Source: Actinomycetota bacterium (GTDB lineage Bacteria > Actinomycetota > Thermoleophilia > Miltoncostaeales > Miltoncostaeaceae). From it: a stretch of DNA of 64,000 bases. Shown piece after piece: positions 57,832 to 64,000 of the stretch. How positions within the stretch are numbered: the stretch's first letter is position 1; each line of letters starts with the position of its first letter. A program made the translations under genes and the position numbers. The DNA is taken from contig CAUJCX010000006.1 of assembly GCA_963169235.1 (NCBI GenBank), positions 1-64,000 of the forward strand. The letters are read 5' to 3'. Under the pieces are notes generated by a model. The model was not told the origin of the DNA. It did no database searches and worked only from the letters and a program-made list of their open reading frames with translations.

Positions 57832-58176
57832 TCAGGCGGGGTCTGGGGAGCCGCCGCGTTGCAGCCGCACCGCCACCGGGCCGCGGGACGTCGCCGGTCC
57901 CGACGCACCGCACCCGGCCTCGCCGCCGGCGGTACCGGACGGGCACGCGCCGCACCCCGATGTGGGGCATCCGGACCCCAAGGGCTCCATCGCCACGTGG
58001 CCCAGACGCACCAGGTGATCGAGCGCCGTGTCGACCACCTCGGGATCGAGGCCGGTGGCGTCCGCCAGTGCGGCGCGGCTGTGTGCGCCCGCCTCGAGCG
58101 CGGCCACGACCCGGCTGAGCGGCCCTGGGGACGAGGCGTTGGCGAGCCCCAGTGCGTCGGCACGGCGGTCGCTCAC
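57832..58176 (-). CDS. FeoC-like winged-helix protein with Cys cluster
   Basis: A 114-residue protein at the end of the feo unit. Residues ~15-65 look like a small winged helix (SRVVAALEAGAHSRAALADA, VDTALDHLVRLGHV). A cysteine cluster follows, with Cys70, Cys75, Cys78 and Cys89 (GCPTSGCGACPSG). This is the plan of FeoC, which has such cysteines for an iron-sulfur cluster and tunes FeoB. Its GTG overlaps the feoB TGA (GTGA). The C-terminal 25 residues are Gly/Ser-rich and not part of FeoC. Convergent with the EamA gene. Confidence 0.75.
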   Translation of the reverse strand: MSDRRADALGLANASSPGPLSRVVAALEAGAHSRAALADATGLDPEVVDTALDHLVRLGHVAMEPLGSGCPTSGCGACPSGTAGGEAGCGASGPATSRGPVAVRLQRGGSPDPA

Positions 58177-60131
58177 CACCACACCCGCCCCACCTGGAAC
58201 ACCAGCACGGCCAGCGCGTACGCGACCACCAGCTGCATGGCGATGCCGAACAGCGTCCAGCGCATCCCCACCTCCCGCCGCTGGGCGGCCAGGGTGGCGA
58301 CGCACGGCGTGTACGCCAGCAGGAACACCATGAACGCCAGCACCGCCGGCAGGGGGTGCCCTCCCGACGAGGCCGCGAAGTCGCGGCGCAGCGCCGCGCT
58401 GAGGCCCTCCTGCCCCGCGCGGCTGGTGTCGTCCAGCGCGTACGTCTGCGCCCACGACGAGATGACGGCTTCCTTGGCGACGAAGCCGGTGATGAGCGCA
58501 CCGGCCGAGCGCCACTGGTCGAACCCGGCCGGAGCGAACACCGGTGAGACCTCCGCGGCGATCTTCGCGTACGCGCTGTCCTCCACGCGCACGCTGCCGA
58601 GCGGCGCGTCGCCCTTCACCGGCACTGACTGAAGCAGCCACACGAGGCACACGGTCACCAGGATGATGCCGCCCGCGGTGCGCAGGAAGCCCCGCAGGCG
58701 CACCCAGGTCACCGACGCCATCACCCGCAGGGTCGGCACCTGGTACGGCGGCAGGTCGATCATCAAGGGCTCGTTGCCCATGGTGCGCCACAGGGTGCTG
58801 CGCAGCGCCAGGCCCACGAGCACCACCAGCGCGATGGACGTCGCGTACATCGCGAACACGACGGTGCCCGCGTTCCCCGGGAAGAACGTCGCTGCCAGCA
58901 TCACGTAGACGGTCAGGCGGGCCGAGCAGCTGGTGAAGGGCACCAGCAGCACGGTGAGGATGCGCTGGCGGGCGCCCCCCAGCACGCGGGTGGCCGCGAT
59001 GGCCGGCACGTTGCAGCCGAAACCGACGATCAGGGGCAGGAACGCCCGGCCCGGCAGCCCCAGCCGCCGCATCAGGCGGTCCACCACCACAGCGGCCCGG
59101 GCCATGTACCCCGAGTCTTCCAAGAGCGCCAGCAGCAGGAACATCACGGTCATCAGCGGCGCGAACGTCAGCAGCATGCCGACGCCGGCCACCAGGCCGT
59201 TGAGGATGAGCCCGTGTACCAGCGGATGCGTGAGGTGCGCGTGCGTCAGCAGCCATCCGGCCGCGTCGGTGACCGGGCCGGTGAGCCAGCCGTCGAGAAG
59301 GTCTTGGAGCGGCGTGACGCCGGACGTGGTGGCCTGGAACACCAGCCACATCAGGACGCCGAATACGATGGGGCCGGCCACGGGTGACAAGGCGACGCGG
59401 TCGACCCGGTCGCTCCACGTGCGGTGGGCGGTCTCGGGCCGCGTCACGGCACCGTGCACGGCCGCGTCGACCCACGCGAAGCGCTCGTCGGCCCGCTCGA
59501 AGTCGTCCCCGGCGTCGGGGTGCTCACGCGGGGGCGGGATGTCGTGTCCCAGCGCGTCCCGCACCGCGCCGGCGAGCCCGTCGAGCCCGCGGCGGTGGCG
59601 GGGGTCGACGGTCACGATGGGCACGCCCAGCGCCCGCGACAGCTCCGAGGGGTCGACGTGGACGCCACGGCGCTCGGCGACGTCGCTCATGGTGAGGGCG
59701 ACGATCACCCGCAGCGGGTACTCCCGCATCTGCGACACGATGTAGAGGCTGCGCGCCAGGTGCGTGGCGGCCGCGATGACCACCACGACGTCTGGCCGGG
59801 CCTCCGGGGCGATGTCCACCACCAGGGCCCGGGTCAAGGCCTCGTCCGGGGACTGCGGGTCCAGCGAGTACGCCCCGGGCAGGTCGAGCAGCTCGTAGAC
59901 CTCGTCCCCGCCGGCGGCGCGCCAGGCGCCGCGGCCCACCTCGACCGTGGTGCCGGGCCAGTTCCCCATGGTGCGCCGGGCCCCGGTCAGGGCGTTGAAG
60001 AGGGTGGACTTGCCGACGTTCGGCGCGCCCACCAGCGCCACCACACGGGACCCGGCAGGCGCGTGCGCCCCGCCGGCCTCGTGGCACGAGGGCACGGTCC
60101 GCGCCGGCGCCGGCGCGGCGACCTCGCTCAT
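58173..60131 (-). CDS. feoB: ferrous iron transport protein B
   Basis: Fe(II) importer with an N-terminal G domain, 652 residues. The G1 motif is VALVGAPNVGKSTLFNALTG. MGNWPGTTVEVGRG (G2), DLPGAYSLDP (G3) and VIVALTMSD (G4, with Met-Ser-Asp in place of NxxD) follow. The membrane part has ten or so helices with the two gate motifs: GFGCNVPAIAATRVL, and PFTSCSARLTVYV with the conserved Cys. The N terminus is extended (about 30 residues). It lies 16 bases after feoA. Confidence 0.96.
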   Translation of the reverse strand: MSEVAAPAPARTVPSCHEAGGAHAPAGSRVVALVGAPNVGKSTLFNALTGARRTMGNWPGTTVEVGRGAWRAAGGDEVYELLDLPGAYSLDPQSPDEALTRALVVDIAPEARPDVVVVIAAATHLARSLYIVSQMREYPLRVIVALTMSDVAERRGVHVDPSELSRALGVPIVTVDPRHRRGLDGLAGAVRDALGHDIPPPREHPDAGDDFERADERFAWVDAAVHGAVTRPETAHRTWSDRVDRVALSPVAGPIVFGVLMWLVFQATTSGVTPLQDLLDGWLTGPVTDAAGWLLTHAHLTHPLVHGLILNGLVAGVGMLLTFAPLMTVMFLLLALLEDSGYMARAAVVVDRLMRRLGLPGRAFLPLIVGFGCNVPAIAATRVLGGARQRILTVLLVPFTSCSARLTVYVMLAATFFPGNAGTVVFAMYATSIALVVLVGLALRSTLWRTMGNEPLMIDLPPYQVPTLRVMASVTWVRLRGFLRTAGGIILVTVCLVWLLQSVPVKGDAPLGSVRVEDSAYAKIAAEVSPVFAPAGFDQWRSAGALITGFVAKEAVISSWAQTYALDDTSRAGQEGLSAALRRDFAASSGGHPLPAVLAFMVFLLAYTPCVATLAAQRREVGMRWTLFGIAMQLVVAYALAVLVFQVGRVWW

Positions 60132-60147
60132 CCGTGCCGTAGAACGC

Positions 60148-60405
60148 TCACGCGGCCGTCGTCACCGAAAGCGACGCCGCCGAGACGCGGTCGAGCGCCA
60201 CCCGCGTGTCGCCGGTGGCGACGACGCAACCGCCGCCCGCCGTGCGCTGGGTCGCGACCACCCGCGCCCCGCAGCGAAGACCCAGCTCGGCCAGCCGGCG
60301 GCGCACCGCGGGCTCGGCGGCGACCTGGCACAGCGTGGCCTGCTGCCCCAGCGGGCAGTCCAAGAGGCACATCGCCTTGTCGACCATGAGCGGAGGGCTT
60401 TCCAT
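60148..60405 (-). CDS. feoA: ferrous iron transport protein A
   Basis: An 85-residue SH3-like cytosolic partner of FeoB. It reads MVDKAMCLLDCPLGQQATLC, then RRLAELGLRCGARVVATQRT, VVATGDTRVALDR and a short tail. FeoA is needed for FeoB-dependent iron uptake. ATG 60405 lies 9 bases after TAGTGT on the minus strand, close to a leaderless layout. An IdeR-like box lies just upstream. First gene of feoA-feoB-feoC-like. Confidence 0.92.
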   Translation of the reverse strand: MESPPLMVDKAMCLLDCPLGQQATLCQVAAEPAVRRRLAELGLRCGARVVATQRTAGGGCVVATGDTRVALDRVSAASLSVTTAA

Positions 60406-62110: not shown

Positions 62111-62617
62111 ATGTCCACGGAGGCGCTTGCCCAAGCCGATCTGCGCACCACCCACAGCCGCGCCGCCGCCGAGGCGGTGCTGGCGCTGGCGTGCACCGTG
62201 GGACGCAACCTCGACCGCCACGCCGGCGAGTTCGGCATCAGCGACGCGAAGCTCGAGGTGCTGGAGCTCCTGTCGTGCTGCGCGGGACGACGCGCGTGCC
62301 TGCACACGCTGGGCGACCGGCTGGGCGTGACCCGGCCCAACATCACCAAACTCATCGACGGGCTCGAGCGGCAGGGGCTCGTACGCCGGCTGCCGCACCC
62401 CGACGACCGGCGCATGGTGCAGGCCGAGCTCACCGCCGAGGGAGCCGCCGTGACGGCCCGCGCGCTGCCGGGGCGCGTGGCGCGCCTCGAGGGCGTGTGG
62501 GAGCCGCTTGACGACGTCGAGCTGGCCCAGCTGGTGACCCTGCTGACGCGGGCCGCCAACGCGGAGTGCGCCAAGGGTCGCCCGGCCACAGACGCCGAGC
62601 CCCGGGCCGCGGCCTGA
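62111..62617 (+). CDS. MarR-family transcriptional regulator
   Basis: A 168-residue winged-helix regulator. It has ISDAKLEVLELLSCC, LHTLGDRLGVTRPNITKLID (recognition helix) and LVRRLPHPDDRRMVQAELTA (the wing with the DxRRxxxxLT signature), framed by dimerisation helices. Two adjacent Cys (Cys-Cys in ELLSCCAGRRAC) could make it thiol-sensitive, as in OhrR-like members; this is inference. It is divergent from the SHOCT/thioesterase unit, its most likely target, and convergent with the XRE gene, the stops being 1 base apart. Confidence 0.92.
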   Translation: MSTEALAQADLRTTHSRAAAEAVLALACTVGRNLDRHAGEFGISDAKLEVLELLSCCAGRRACLHTLGDRLGVTRPNITKLIDGLERQGLVRRLPHPDDRRMVQAELTAEGAAVTARALPGRVARLEGVWEPLDDVELAQLVTLLTRAANAECAKGRPATDAEPRAAA

Positions 62618-62618
62618 C

Positions 62619-62888
62619 TCAGCCGGCCGGCGCCTGGTCCACCGGGTCGCCCCACAGCTCCTCCACGCTGGCCCCCAGCGCGCCCGCGACCTTCAGCGCC
62701 AGGTACACCGACGGCGCGTAGTCGCCGGTCTCCATCGAGATGATGGTCTGGCGGCTGACGCCCACCGACGCGGCCAGCGCCTGCTGGGTGAGCCCCGCCT
62801 GCTTGCGCCGCGCGCGTACGGCCTCGCCGGCGCCGCCGTCGGCCCTCTCGGCCCGGACGACGCCGCCGGCGCGCTTGCCGATCCTCAC
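62619..62888 (-). CDS. XRE-family transcriptional regulator
   Basis: An 89-residue helix-turn-helix protein. A basic N-terminal stretch precedes RARRKQAGLTQQALAASVGV, SRQTIISMETGDYAPSVYLA and LKVAGALGASVEELW, a complete Cro/XRE domain of the type often paired with a small membrane protein. GTG 62888 overlaps the membrane gene's TGA (GTGA). It probably represses its own unit through the operator cluster upstream of 63373. Confidence 0.9.
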   Translation of the reverse strand: MRIGKRAGGVVRAERADGGAGEAVRARRKQAGLTQQALAASVGVSRQTIISMETGDYAPSVYLALKVAGALGASVEELWGDPVDQAPAG

Positions 62889-63373
62889 GACGTGCCGCGA
62901 CGCCGCGCGACAACGGTGGTGACGATGACCGAACCGCCGCCCACGAGGGCGCCGGCGAACATGCCCCACCGGGTCGCCGTGGACATGCCGGTCACGTGGG
63001 CGTAGCCCGCGAGGAACACGAAGATGGGAATCACCGTCAGCAGCGTGCCGATGATGCGCTTGGCCGTCCACCGGTGGACGGTGGTGTCGACGTTGCGCCG
63101 GGTGACGTAGAGCGTCGCCAGCAGCATGGGCAGCAGGAAGGCGATGCCGATGTCGCGCATCACGTGCGCGGTGGCGGCGCTGGCCGACCACACGGTGATC
63201 GCCATGACCCACGGCACGACCACCCACTGCACGGCCGCCGCCAGCGCGATGCCCTCGTACCACCGGGTGCGCTCGCGCTCGTCCTGCCCGTACATGTCTC
63301 CGTCGAAGTCCAGCACGTATGCGGCAAGGCGCTCGATGCCCGACGGGGTGCCGCTCAGATGTGAAGTAGACAT
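62885..63373 (-). CDS. four-helix membrane protein paired with the XRE regulator
   Basis: A 162-residue protein with a cytosolic N terminus (GIERLAAYVLDFDGDMYGQD) and four membrane helices (about 41-62, 70-90, 107-125, 135-155). No enzymatic motif. It is translationally coupled to the XRE gene downstream, a common actinobacterial pairing in which the membrane protein may sense a signal. ATG 63373 lies 7 bases after a GATACT -10 box with a good -35, so the message is predicted leaderless. Confidence 0.75.
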   Translation of the reverse strand: MSTSHLSGTPSGIERLAAYVLDFDGDMYGQDERERTRWYEGIALAAAVQWVVVPWVMAITVWSASAATAHVMRDIGIAFLLPMLLATLYVTRRNVDTTVHRWTAKRIIGTLLTVIPIFVFLAGYAHVTGMSTATRWGMFAGALVGGGSVIVTTVVARRRGTS

Positions 63374-63380
63374 GACACGA

Positions 63381-63409
63381 GTATCGTGCCAAGTCGGCTT
63401 GACGTCAAG
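63381..63409 (-). promoter_or_regulatory. TTGACG-N17-GATACT promoter, leaderless layout
   Basis: On the minus strand the -35 TTGACG (63404-63409) and -10 GATACT (63381-63386) are 17 bases apart. The -10 ends 7 bases before ATG 63373. Confidence 0.6.
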
Positions 63410-63420
63410 TGCCCTTGACC
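63399..63420. promoter_or_regulatory. cluster of three CTTGAC half-sites over the -35
   Basis: CTTGAC, GTCAAG and CTTGAC lie at 63399-63404, 63405-63410 and 63415-63420. The first two form a perfect 12-bp palindrome, the last two a second inverted repeat with a 4-base spacer. They cover the -35 of the membrane/XRE unit, a likely autoregulatory operator. Confidence 0.55.
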
Positions 63421-63449
63421 AACCGTTTACCCGCGCCGGCCCGGGAACG

Positions 63450-63479
63450 ACGAAGGGGCGCCACCGGGCGCCCCTTCGT
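63450..63479. terminator. 12-bp hairpin downstream of citrate synthase
   Basis: Arms 63450-63461 and 63468-63479 (ACGAAGGGGCGC and complement) enclose a 6-base loop, 24 bases after the citrate synthase stop on the minus strand. Confidence 0.7.
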
Positions 63480-63503
63480 GACCTTCGGTGATGTCGGCCG
63501 CGG

Positions 63504-64000
63504 CTAGCGGGCCGAGGCCTCCACGTAGTCGCGCTCGTCGGCGCCGGTGTAGACCTGGCGCGGACGGGAGATCTTCTGCTCCTTGTCGTGGATCATCTCG
63601 TTCCACTGGGCCAGCCAGCCCGGCGCGCGGCCGATGGCGAACATGACCGTGAACATCTCGGCGGGCAGGCCGAGCGCCTCGTAGATGAGGCCGGAGTAGA
63701 AGTCGACGTTGGGGTACAGCTTGCGCTTGACGAAGTACTCGTCGGCCAGCGCGATCTCCTCGAGGCCCGACGCGATGTCGAGCAGCGGGTTCTTGCCCGT
63801 CACCTCGAACACGTCCTCGCACGCCTTCTTGATGATCTTGGCGCGCGGGTCGTAGTTCTTGTAGACCCGGTGGCCGAAGCCCATCAGGCGCTCCTTGCCG
63901 CCCTTCACGCCCTCCATGAACTCCGGGATGGTCTGGCCACCGTCGATGCGGCGCAGCATCTTCAGCACGGCCTCGTTGGCGCCACCGTGCAGGGGGCCGT
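63504..64000 (-). CDS. gltA: citrate synthase, C-terminal part (runs off window)
   Basis: The frame is open across the window's right end; the visible C-terminal ~165 residues are typical of type II citrate synthase. [15 protein letters not shown] carries an active-site His. [20 protein letters not shown] carries a second His, and [25 protein letters not shown] the catalytic Asp. The end is [21 protein letters not shown]. It condenses oxaloacetate and acetyl-CoA. The N-terminal half and start lie outside the window. Confidence 0.96.

Follow-up and report, generated by a model that had tools for sequence, protein, structure and literature searches.

Gene pair and promoter

The window analysed here, a stretch of 64,000 nucleotides from a draft genome of 2.94 Mb that is 96% complete, carries on its minus strand a pair of small genes flanked by citrate synthase and a convergent MarR gene. 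The first gene (62885..63373) encodes a protein of 162 aa with four predicted membrane helices and an N-terminal DGDMYGQDERERTRWYEG motif. The second (62619..62888) encodes an XRE-family repressor of 89 aa, whose GTG start overlaps the TGA of the membrane gene; the four bases GTGA at 62885-62888 are common to both genes, and the coupling described in the initial annotation is thus present. A Pfam scan of the window frames found no phage genes among the XRE neighbours. Further frames lie on the minus strand at 58173-60405 and, judged by their motifs, presumably encode FeoB and a FeoA-like protein.

The pair is preceded by TTGACG-17-GATACT (63408 to 63380, minus strand), the only sigma-70-like match in 62500-63560 (0.0 ± 0.2 in shuffles). 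Its -35 hexamer TTGACG (63403..63408) is conserved in the orthologues, and its -10 hexamer GATACT (63380..63385) lies 6 nt before the ATG at 63373-63371. Because the ATG stands 6 nt past the -10, the promoter fits the leaderless pattern of Actinobacteria, given in PMC3160421 as a -10-like signal ~12 bp before the start codon, and it is probably leaderless. The first base of the -10 is G here, against the T of TANNNT, and T is found at this position in 0 of the 26 orthologous promoters considered below, while 24 of the 26 have A at -11 and the same number have T at -7.

Probable operator dyads in the window

Two dyads overlie this promoter on the minus strand. Dyad 1 (63404..63419) reads GTCAAG-GGCA-CTTGAC, an exact match, and is abutted by dyad 2 (63388..63403), which reads GTCAAG-CCGA-CTTGGC and agrees at 11 of the 12 half-site positions; both together occupy 63388-63419. 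Of the -35 hexamer, five bases fall inside the right half of dyad 1, and dyad 2 fills the spacer between the -35 and the -10. Three half-sites in alternating orientation had initially been recognised over the -35, making one abutted 12-bp palindrome and one pair with a 4-base spacer. All three are present and lie over the -35, the palindrome CTTGACGTCAAG at 63398-63409 and the spaced pair at 63404-63419; the count, however, was too low, since a fourth half-site, CTTGGC (one mismatch), exists, and the geometry is one of four half-sites in two dyads rather than of three. Because the fourth half-site makes a second N4 dyad, the 16-bp dyad is the repeat unit, and the 12-bp palindrome marks the junction of two such units.

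The arrangement stands out against shuffled sequence. The 22-mer GTCAAGN4CTTGACGTCAAG with up to 3 mismatches has two matches in the window, both at the locus (mean 0.00 in 100 shuffles); CTTGACGTCAAG with up to 1 mismatch has one match (shuffle mean 0.03); and the N4 dyad with up to 1 mismatch has two, again both at the locus (shuffle mean 0.01). Scored for self-consistency as two dyads, the 32-mer at the locus has 1 mismatch, compared with 3 for the best site elsewhere in the window and minima of 2 to 4 in 10 mononucleotide shuffles; the shuffles used for self-consistency and for dyad scoring preserve base composition only. On these tests within the window, an origin of the operator repeat by chance is very unlikely.

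A search of the whole draft genome for a further dyad with up to 1 mismatch found none away from the locus, and in the other genome of the genus (G001) the dyad, at the same threshold, likewise occurs only where the pair lies. In its own genome, as represented by the 96% complete draft, the switch appears to control only itself.

Conservation in orthologous pairs

A scan of named genomes returned 37 loci, of which 23 were true relatives (L007-L029). The other 14 (L030-L043), which had matched through short stretches such as DFDGDLYG and whose proteins we take to be riboflavin kinase/FAD synthetase RibF, were false and were dropped before all counts. All 23 true relatives have an XRE next to the membrane match, and the membrane frame could be read in 22 of them (not in L026; that of L029 is interrupted). 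Two loci from genomes of the family of G042 (L101 and L103) were added which, with the window itself, gave 26 promoters; many of the Actinoplanes loci are related and share their context, so that these do not amount to 26 independent events.

To be counted, a dyad had to lie no more than 150 nt from the start and to agree at no fewer than 11 of the 12 half-site positions, the third position being scored as degenerate. Loss of the half-sites in orthologous pairs had been named in advance as the result that would speak against the suggested autoregulatory switch; the dyad is kept in 26 of 26 promoters, at least two dyads are present in 25 (L007 has one only), and nine have three. In every promoter a dyad lies over the -35, within 1 nt of its position in the window: it starts 46 nt before the ATG in 23 promoters and 47 nt before it in L008, L101 and L103. 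In 25 of the 26 a second dyad occupies the spacer. The last two dyads follow each other at a step of 16 bp in 24 of these 25 and of 18 in L008; L021 has an additional step of 17.

The 22 promoters that could be aligned in register, which leaves out L007 (without the second dyad) and L008, L101 and L103 (another register), have a mean pairwise identity of 0.92 in the half-sites, against 0.58 in the N4 spacers and 0.28 in the flank from -80 to -63; the 14 nt before the ATG have 0.68. For the window against the other 21, the values are 0.90, 0.37 and 0.28 for half-sites, spacers and flank, respectively. These comparisons bear on the simplest alternative, namely that the repeats are a coincidence of sequence around an ordinary -35 of the TTGACA type and serve no specific regulator. 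As the -35 consensus is TTGAC, a promoter is indeed expected to have one half-site, but the locus has four, and their spacing and orientation are conserved across lineages whose flanks have diverged, which makes this explanation extremely improbable.

In several Actinoplanes relatives (L012, L013, L015-L017, L021 and L028) dyads and spacers together form a perfect 32-bp palindrome, for example GTTAAGTCCTCTTGACGTCAAGAGGACTTAAC (nearly perfect in L015), and the spacers seem to be constrained there too. L006 (G010:C185:22892-23890) has two tandem copies of the membrane gene. The first ends with its stop codon within the operator of the second, and its own promoter looks leaderless and contains one half-site only. 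A further site in G010, on C57, is embedded in a coding frame and was discounted as a chance match.

An exact search of the phylum with a degenerate two-dyad pattern gave 0 matches in 396 genomes; this pattern is unable to match the CTTGGC of the window itself, and the result is therefore a background rate only.

Dyads at other loci of CylR2-like regulators

The XRE protein belongs to Pfam HTH_3 (7e-15), and CylR2 is among its closest solved relatives (structure 1utx; phmmer E 3.5e-6, profile 8.2e-9). Its SRQT recognition helix is invariant in the 15 of 15 orthologues aligned. A class-wide profile search of 199 genomes also reached more distant XREs, at 57-70 bits compared with 140 for the window family. 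The 22 class loci include three of the window family and two (L108 and L118) that lack a readable start or upstream region and were not scored. At 11 of the 12 loci with a CylR2-like helix (SRQT, or TRQS in L120), two or three full GTMAAG-N4-CTTKAC dyads lie upstream, with the scoring window of L112 shifted 135 nt upstream, where its sites lie (the fixed position scored 7); the best upstream dyad of L120 has 10 of the 12 positions. The membrane partners at these 11 loci differ from that of the window. Five XREs of the class with other recognition helices had an upstream dyad in 0 of 5 cases.

Plasmid loci gave the same picture. Two dyads were found at 7 of 8 loci from Streptomyces, Streptantibioticus, Sphingomonas, Azospirillum, Pusillibacter and the archaeon Haladaptatus, hand-picked from 283 matching records with 257 Staphylococcus records left out, and, as L147/L149 and L148/L154 are close pairs, these represent fewer than eight independent cases. 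The exception, L151 of Sphingomonas, has an SRQA helix and 10 of 12 positions. The degenerate form of the operator had been picked after the first sequences, and the plasmid loci were obtained once it was fixed. In shuffled upstream regions (66 x 200), a dyad appeared in 9 of 13,200. The motif is thus linked, across loci, to the CylR2-like type of XRE.

What varies is the distance between dyads. The step is 16-18 bp in the window family, whereas 13 of the 19 other loci having two or more dyads show 27-30 bp and five show 34-50; Haladaptatus has 17, and L123 an extra step of 20. In four of the loci with a 27-28-bp spacing (L109, L111, L113 and L117) the -35 lies inside dyad 1, and the spacer of dyad 2 together with its right half seemingly makes up a TANNNT-like -10 (TAACTT, TAGCTT).

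From this association we consider it very probable that the dyads are the XRE's own operator. The autoregulation suggested in the initial annotation is well supported, at the level of sequence, by the 26 of 26 promoters and by the recurrence of the motif at loci with other membrane partners. The bound XRE might instead act as an activator or a dual regulator, for instance through dimers placed both upstream of and beside RNA polymerase, and the third dyad, at -62 or -63 in nine of the 26 promoters, has a position compatible with activation. Yet dyad 1 overlaps the -35 in all 26 and the second dyad sits in the spacer in 25, while at L109, L111, L113 and L117 the second dyad overlaps the expected place of the -10, positions that favour repression and leave activation quite unlikely.

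Loci without a dyad and a second HTH family

The wider family also includes 15 XREs from Micromonosporaceae genomes in which no pair was found, and 14 of these had no dyad within 150 nt. Twelve of the 15 (L134-L141 and L143-L146) have a TRQT helix, mostly within VTRQT[IVL][IL]AIEQ, and neither a promoter nor an operator was found in the upstream sequence searched for these twelve; their promoters may lie elsewhere. L132 carries the SRQT helix, yet has no upstream dyad. TRQT is also the helix of the Haladaptatus XRE, which has dyads, so that the motif cannot be predicted from the helix alone.

Nor is the motif confined to these XREs, since closely similar dyads occur in a second HTH family. A protein of ~133 aa of the SKQAAW type (ASWTQIGAALGTSKQAAWE), unrelated to the XRE, has GTCARG-N4-CYTGAC-like dyads of its own, often two (L048, L058 and L066-L083), and its gene occurs in Micromonosporaceae genomes whether or not they have the membrane-XRE pair. 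Of six Actinoplanes-type genomes, four contain another two-dyad site (1 to 3 mismatches) away from the pair, and at two of these four (L048 and L058) the gene of the ~133 aa protein follows directly downstream. Its dyads end ~14 nt before the start in L048, L072 and L081, where the start is probably leaderless. GTCA-N8-TGAC was found at least once near the start of the gene in 13 of 19 loci and twice in 10, the gene not having been located in four of the remaining loci; 11 of the 13 loci with a site belong to genomes in which the pair was not found. The ~133 aa protein may therefore bind a similar site of its own.

Another regulator, such as this HTH protein, could then be what occupies the dyads before the membrane-XRE pair, with the XRE doing something else. 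Its own dyads stand equally far from the ATG, and most of them lie in genomes in which the pair was not found, as that reading would have it. The genome of the window, however, keeps its dyads while having no orthologue of the SKQAAW type, its only two matches scoring ~23 bits, and dyads accompany CylR2-like XREs in several phyla. We regard a foreign regulator as unlikely and retain the XRE as the probable ligand of the dyads.

The membrane partner

Hydropathy predicts three helices in the membrane protein of the window at a strict cut-off and four at a looser one, and the AlphaFold model has four long helices and a shorter N-terminal one (mean pLDDT 81, pTM 0.70), in agreement with the four-helix protein of the initial annotation. 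The loop that follows the second long helix is positively charged and the outer loops are short, which suggests that the ends are cytosolic and that there is almost no outside domain. The protein falls in no Pfam family at E 0.001 or 0.5, passes no NCBIfam cut-off and has no PADLOC match; over 15 members of the family, the best Pfam match was DUF4235 (0.0011, in one member only), and DUF2178 was absent among the best 25 of the 33 Pfam families matched. A fold search of the model against solved structures gave no match at E <= 0.001, and no relatives were found in plasmid and phage collections at E 1e-5.

These searches bear on the possibility that the pair is toxin-antitoxin-like, with the membrane protein as toxin and the XRE as autoregulating antitoxin. 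Small XRE autorepressors are typical antitoxins, and the best NCBIfam model of the XRE is the HipB-coupled (Y4mF) antitoxin subfamily; its score of 48.1 bits, however, is below the curated cut-off of 71.65. The membrane protein matches no toxin family in the Pfam, NCBIfam and PADLOC searches, the plasmid and phage collections hold no relative at the threshold used, and CylR2, to which the XRE is close, is itself a regulator with a membrane partner. We therefore consider a toxin-antitoxin pair highly unlikely, and a regulator working with a membrane partner remains the reading we follow.

The membrane protein has a nearly invariant segment, DGDxYG(x)DERERxRWYE, leading into the first membrane helix, within which DERER is invariant in 15 of 15 members of the window family. 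A related motif recurs in the partners of the other XREs, 18 of which were obtained from 20 loci (none could be read for L107 or for L124, which is cut short): DER is present in 14 of 18 (shuffle mean 0.26), and DE[RLMY], a pattern chosen after viewing the sequences, in 18 of 18 (shuffle mean 0.74). By eye, the motif is followed by a hydrophobic stretch in 17 of 18; the one without it, L125, has an unread base in its frame. Profile comparison of the window family with six of these partners that carry DER found no similarity. When five partners were scanned, DUF2178 was matched by L110 and L120 with E 0.002-0.004, short of the family's cut-off, the matched stretches covering the motif; L109 gave DUF3796 at 0.058. 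We propose that the DE[RLMY]/DERER motif is the site where the repressor is held.

Proposed mechanism

Taken as a whole, the reading that we think likely is that of a dimeric XRE autorepressor kept in check by its membrane partner. The dyads, the promoter geometry, their conservation, the gene pairing and the association of the motif with one XRE type can be read directly from the DNA; from them we infer binding, repression, contact between the two proteins and a signal. XRE dimers would bind two tandem GTCAAG-N4-CTTGAC dyads, or three where a third is present, and, by covering the -35 and the spacer, would keep RNA polymerase from using the probably leaderless promoter of the operon. The membrane protein would bind the XRE through the DERER segment just before its first membrane helix. 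If membrane sensing is its role, a change in membrane condition would lead it to draw the XRE off the DNA, so that the pair would raise its own expression; leaderless, overlapping translation could hold the two proteins in proportion. That the membrane protein antagonises the repressor is a component to which we give slightly better than even odds.

Genome annotation repeatedly shows tiny XREs paired with functionally uncharacterised membrane proteins, and we know of no signal for such pairs outside CylR1/CylR2. A common operator code and contact motif would make them a testable class, and the promoter itself could serve as a reporter for what the membrane protein senses. On a wider scale, the chances seem to us evenly balanced that we are dealing with an old, widespread module of bacteria and archaea, made of a CylR2-like XRE, a paired GTMAAG-N4-CTTKAC operator and an exchangeable membrane protein with a DE[RLMY] handle. 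Repressor and DNA code would then have stayed constant while membrane sensors of several unrelated kinds were exchanged, and a single operator pattern could serve to find and report membrane-sensing switches across prokaryotes. In the open-access literature, no such operator code and no XRE-DUF2178 pairs were described among the top matches listed, no paper combining DUF2178 and helix-turn-helix was found, and searches with the motif strings and domain names returned nothing relevant among the matches listed.

Comparison with known systems

The phage 434 repressor, which acts on tandem dyad operators, and HTH_3 proteins share the HTH fold with the XRE; unlike them, the window has a single short HTH protein with a membrane partner and non-phage neighbours.

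A closer parallel is CylR1/CylR2 of Enterococcus faecalis, in which, according to PMC5454873, a small CylR2-type XRE is likewise accompanied by a membrane partner gene, the repressor sits on a promoter operator and the membrane protein is thought to relieve repression. In that account an extracellular inducer acting on membrane-bound CylR1 is said to disrupt the contact of CylR2 with its operator, the signalling step being unresolved, and cylR1/cylR2 are transcribed divergently from the neighbouring cytolysin operon that they control (PMC5454873). The pair in the window, in contrast, has no cytolysin or bacteriocin neighbours and no second genomic site at up to 1 mismatch, and it differs in its membrane-then-XRE order, abutted dyads and probably leaderless start.

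SdpR has an HTH of the ArsR type, whereas the XRE of the window is an HTH_3 protein with no ArsR-type family among its Pfam matches. SdpI/SdpR of Bacillus subtilis nevertheless resembles the pair, as described in PMC1626106, in joining a polytopic membrane protein and an autorepressor in one operon, and SdpI there sequesters SdpR upon a signal. It differs in that the regulator comes first (sdpRI) and that the signal is the secreted toxin SdpC (PMC1626106).

The XRE-DUF2178 pairs annotated on Streptomyces and Haladaptatus plasmids are similar in having a CylR2-like XRE, an overlapping membrane gene with a DER motif and two GTMAAG-N4-CTTKAC dyads before the operon. The membrane protein of the window, unlike theirs, matches no Pfam family at the thresholds used; with those partners it has in common a DER-type motif before a membrane helix, and no overall homology was found in the profile comparison with six DER partners. 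The dyads are spaced by 27 bp in the Streptomyces loci, by 17 in Haladaptatus and by 16 in the window, and the Haladaptatus pair also shares with the window the membrane-then-XRE order and a 4-base overlap.
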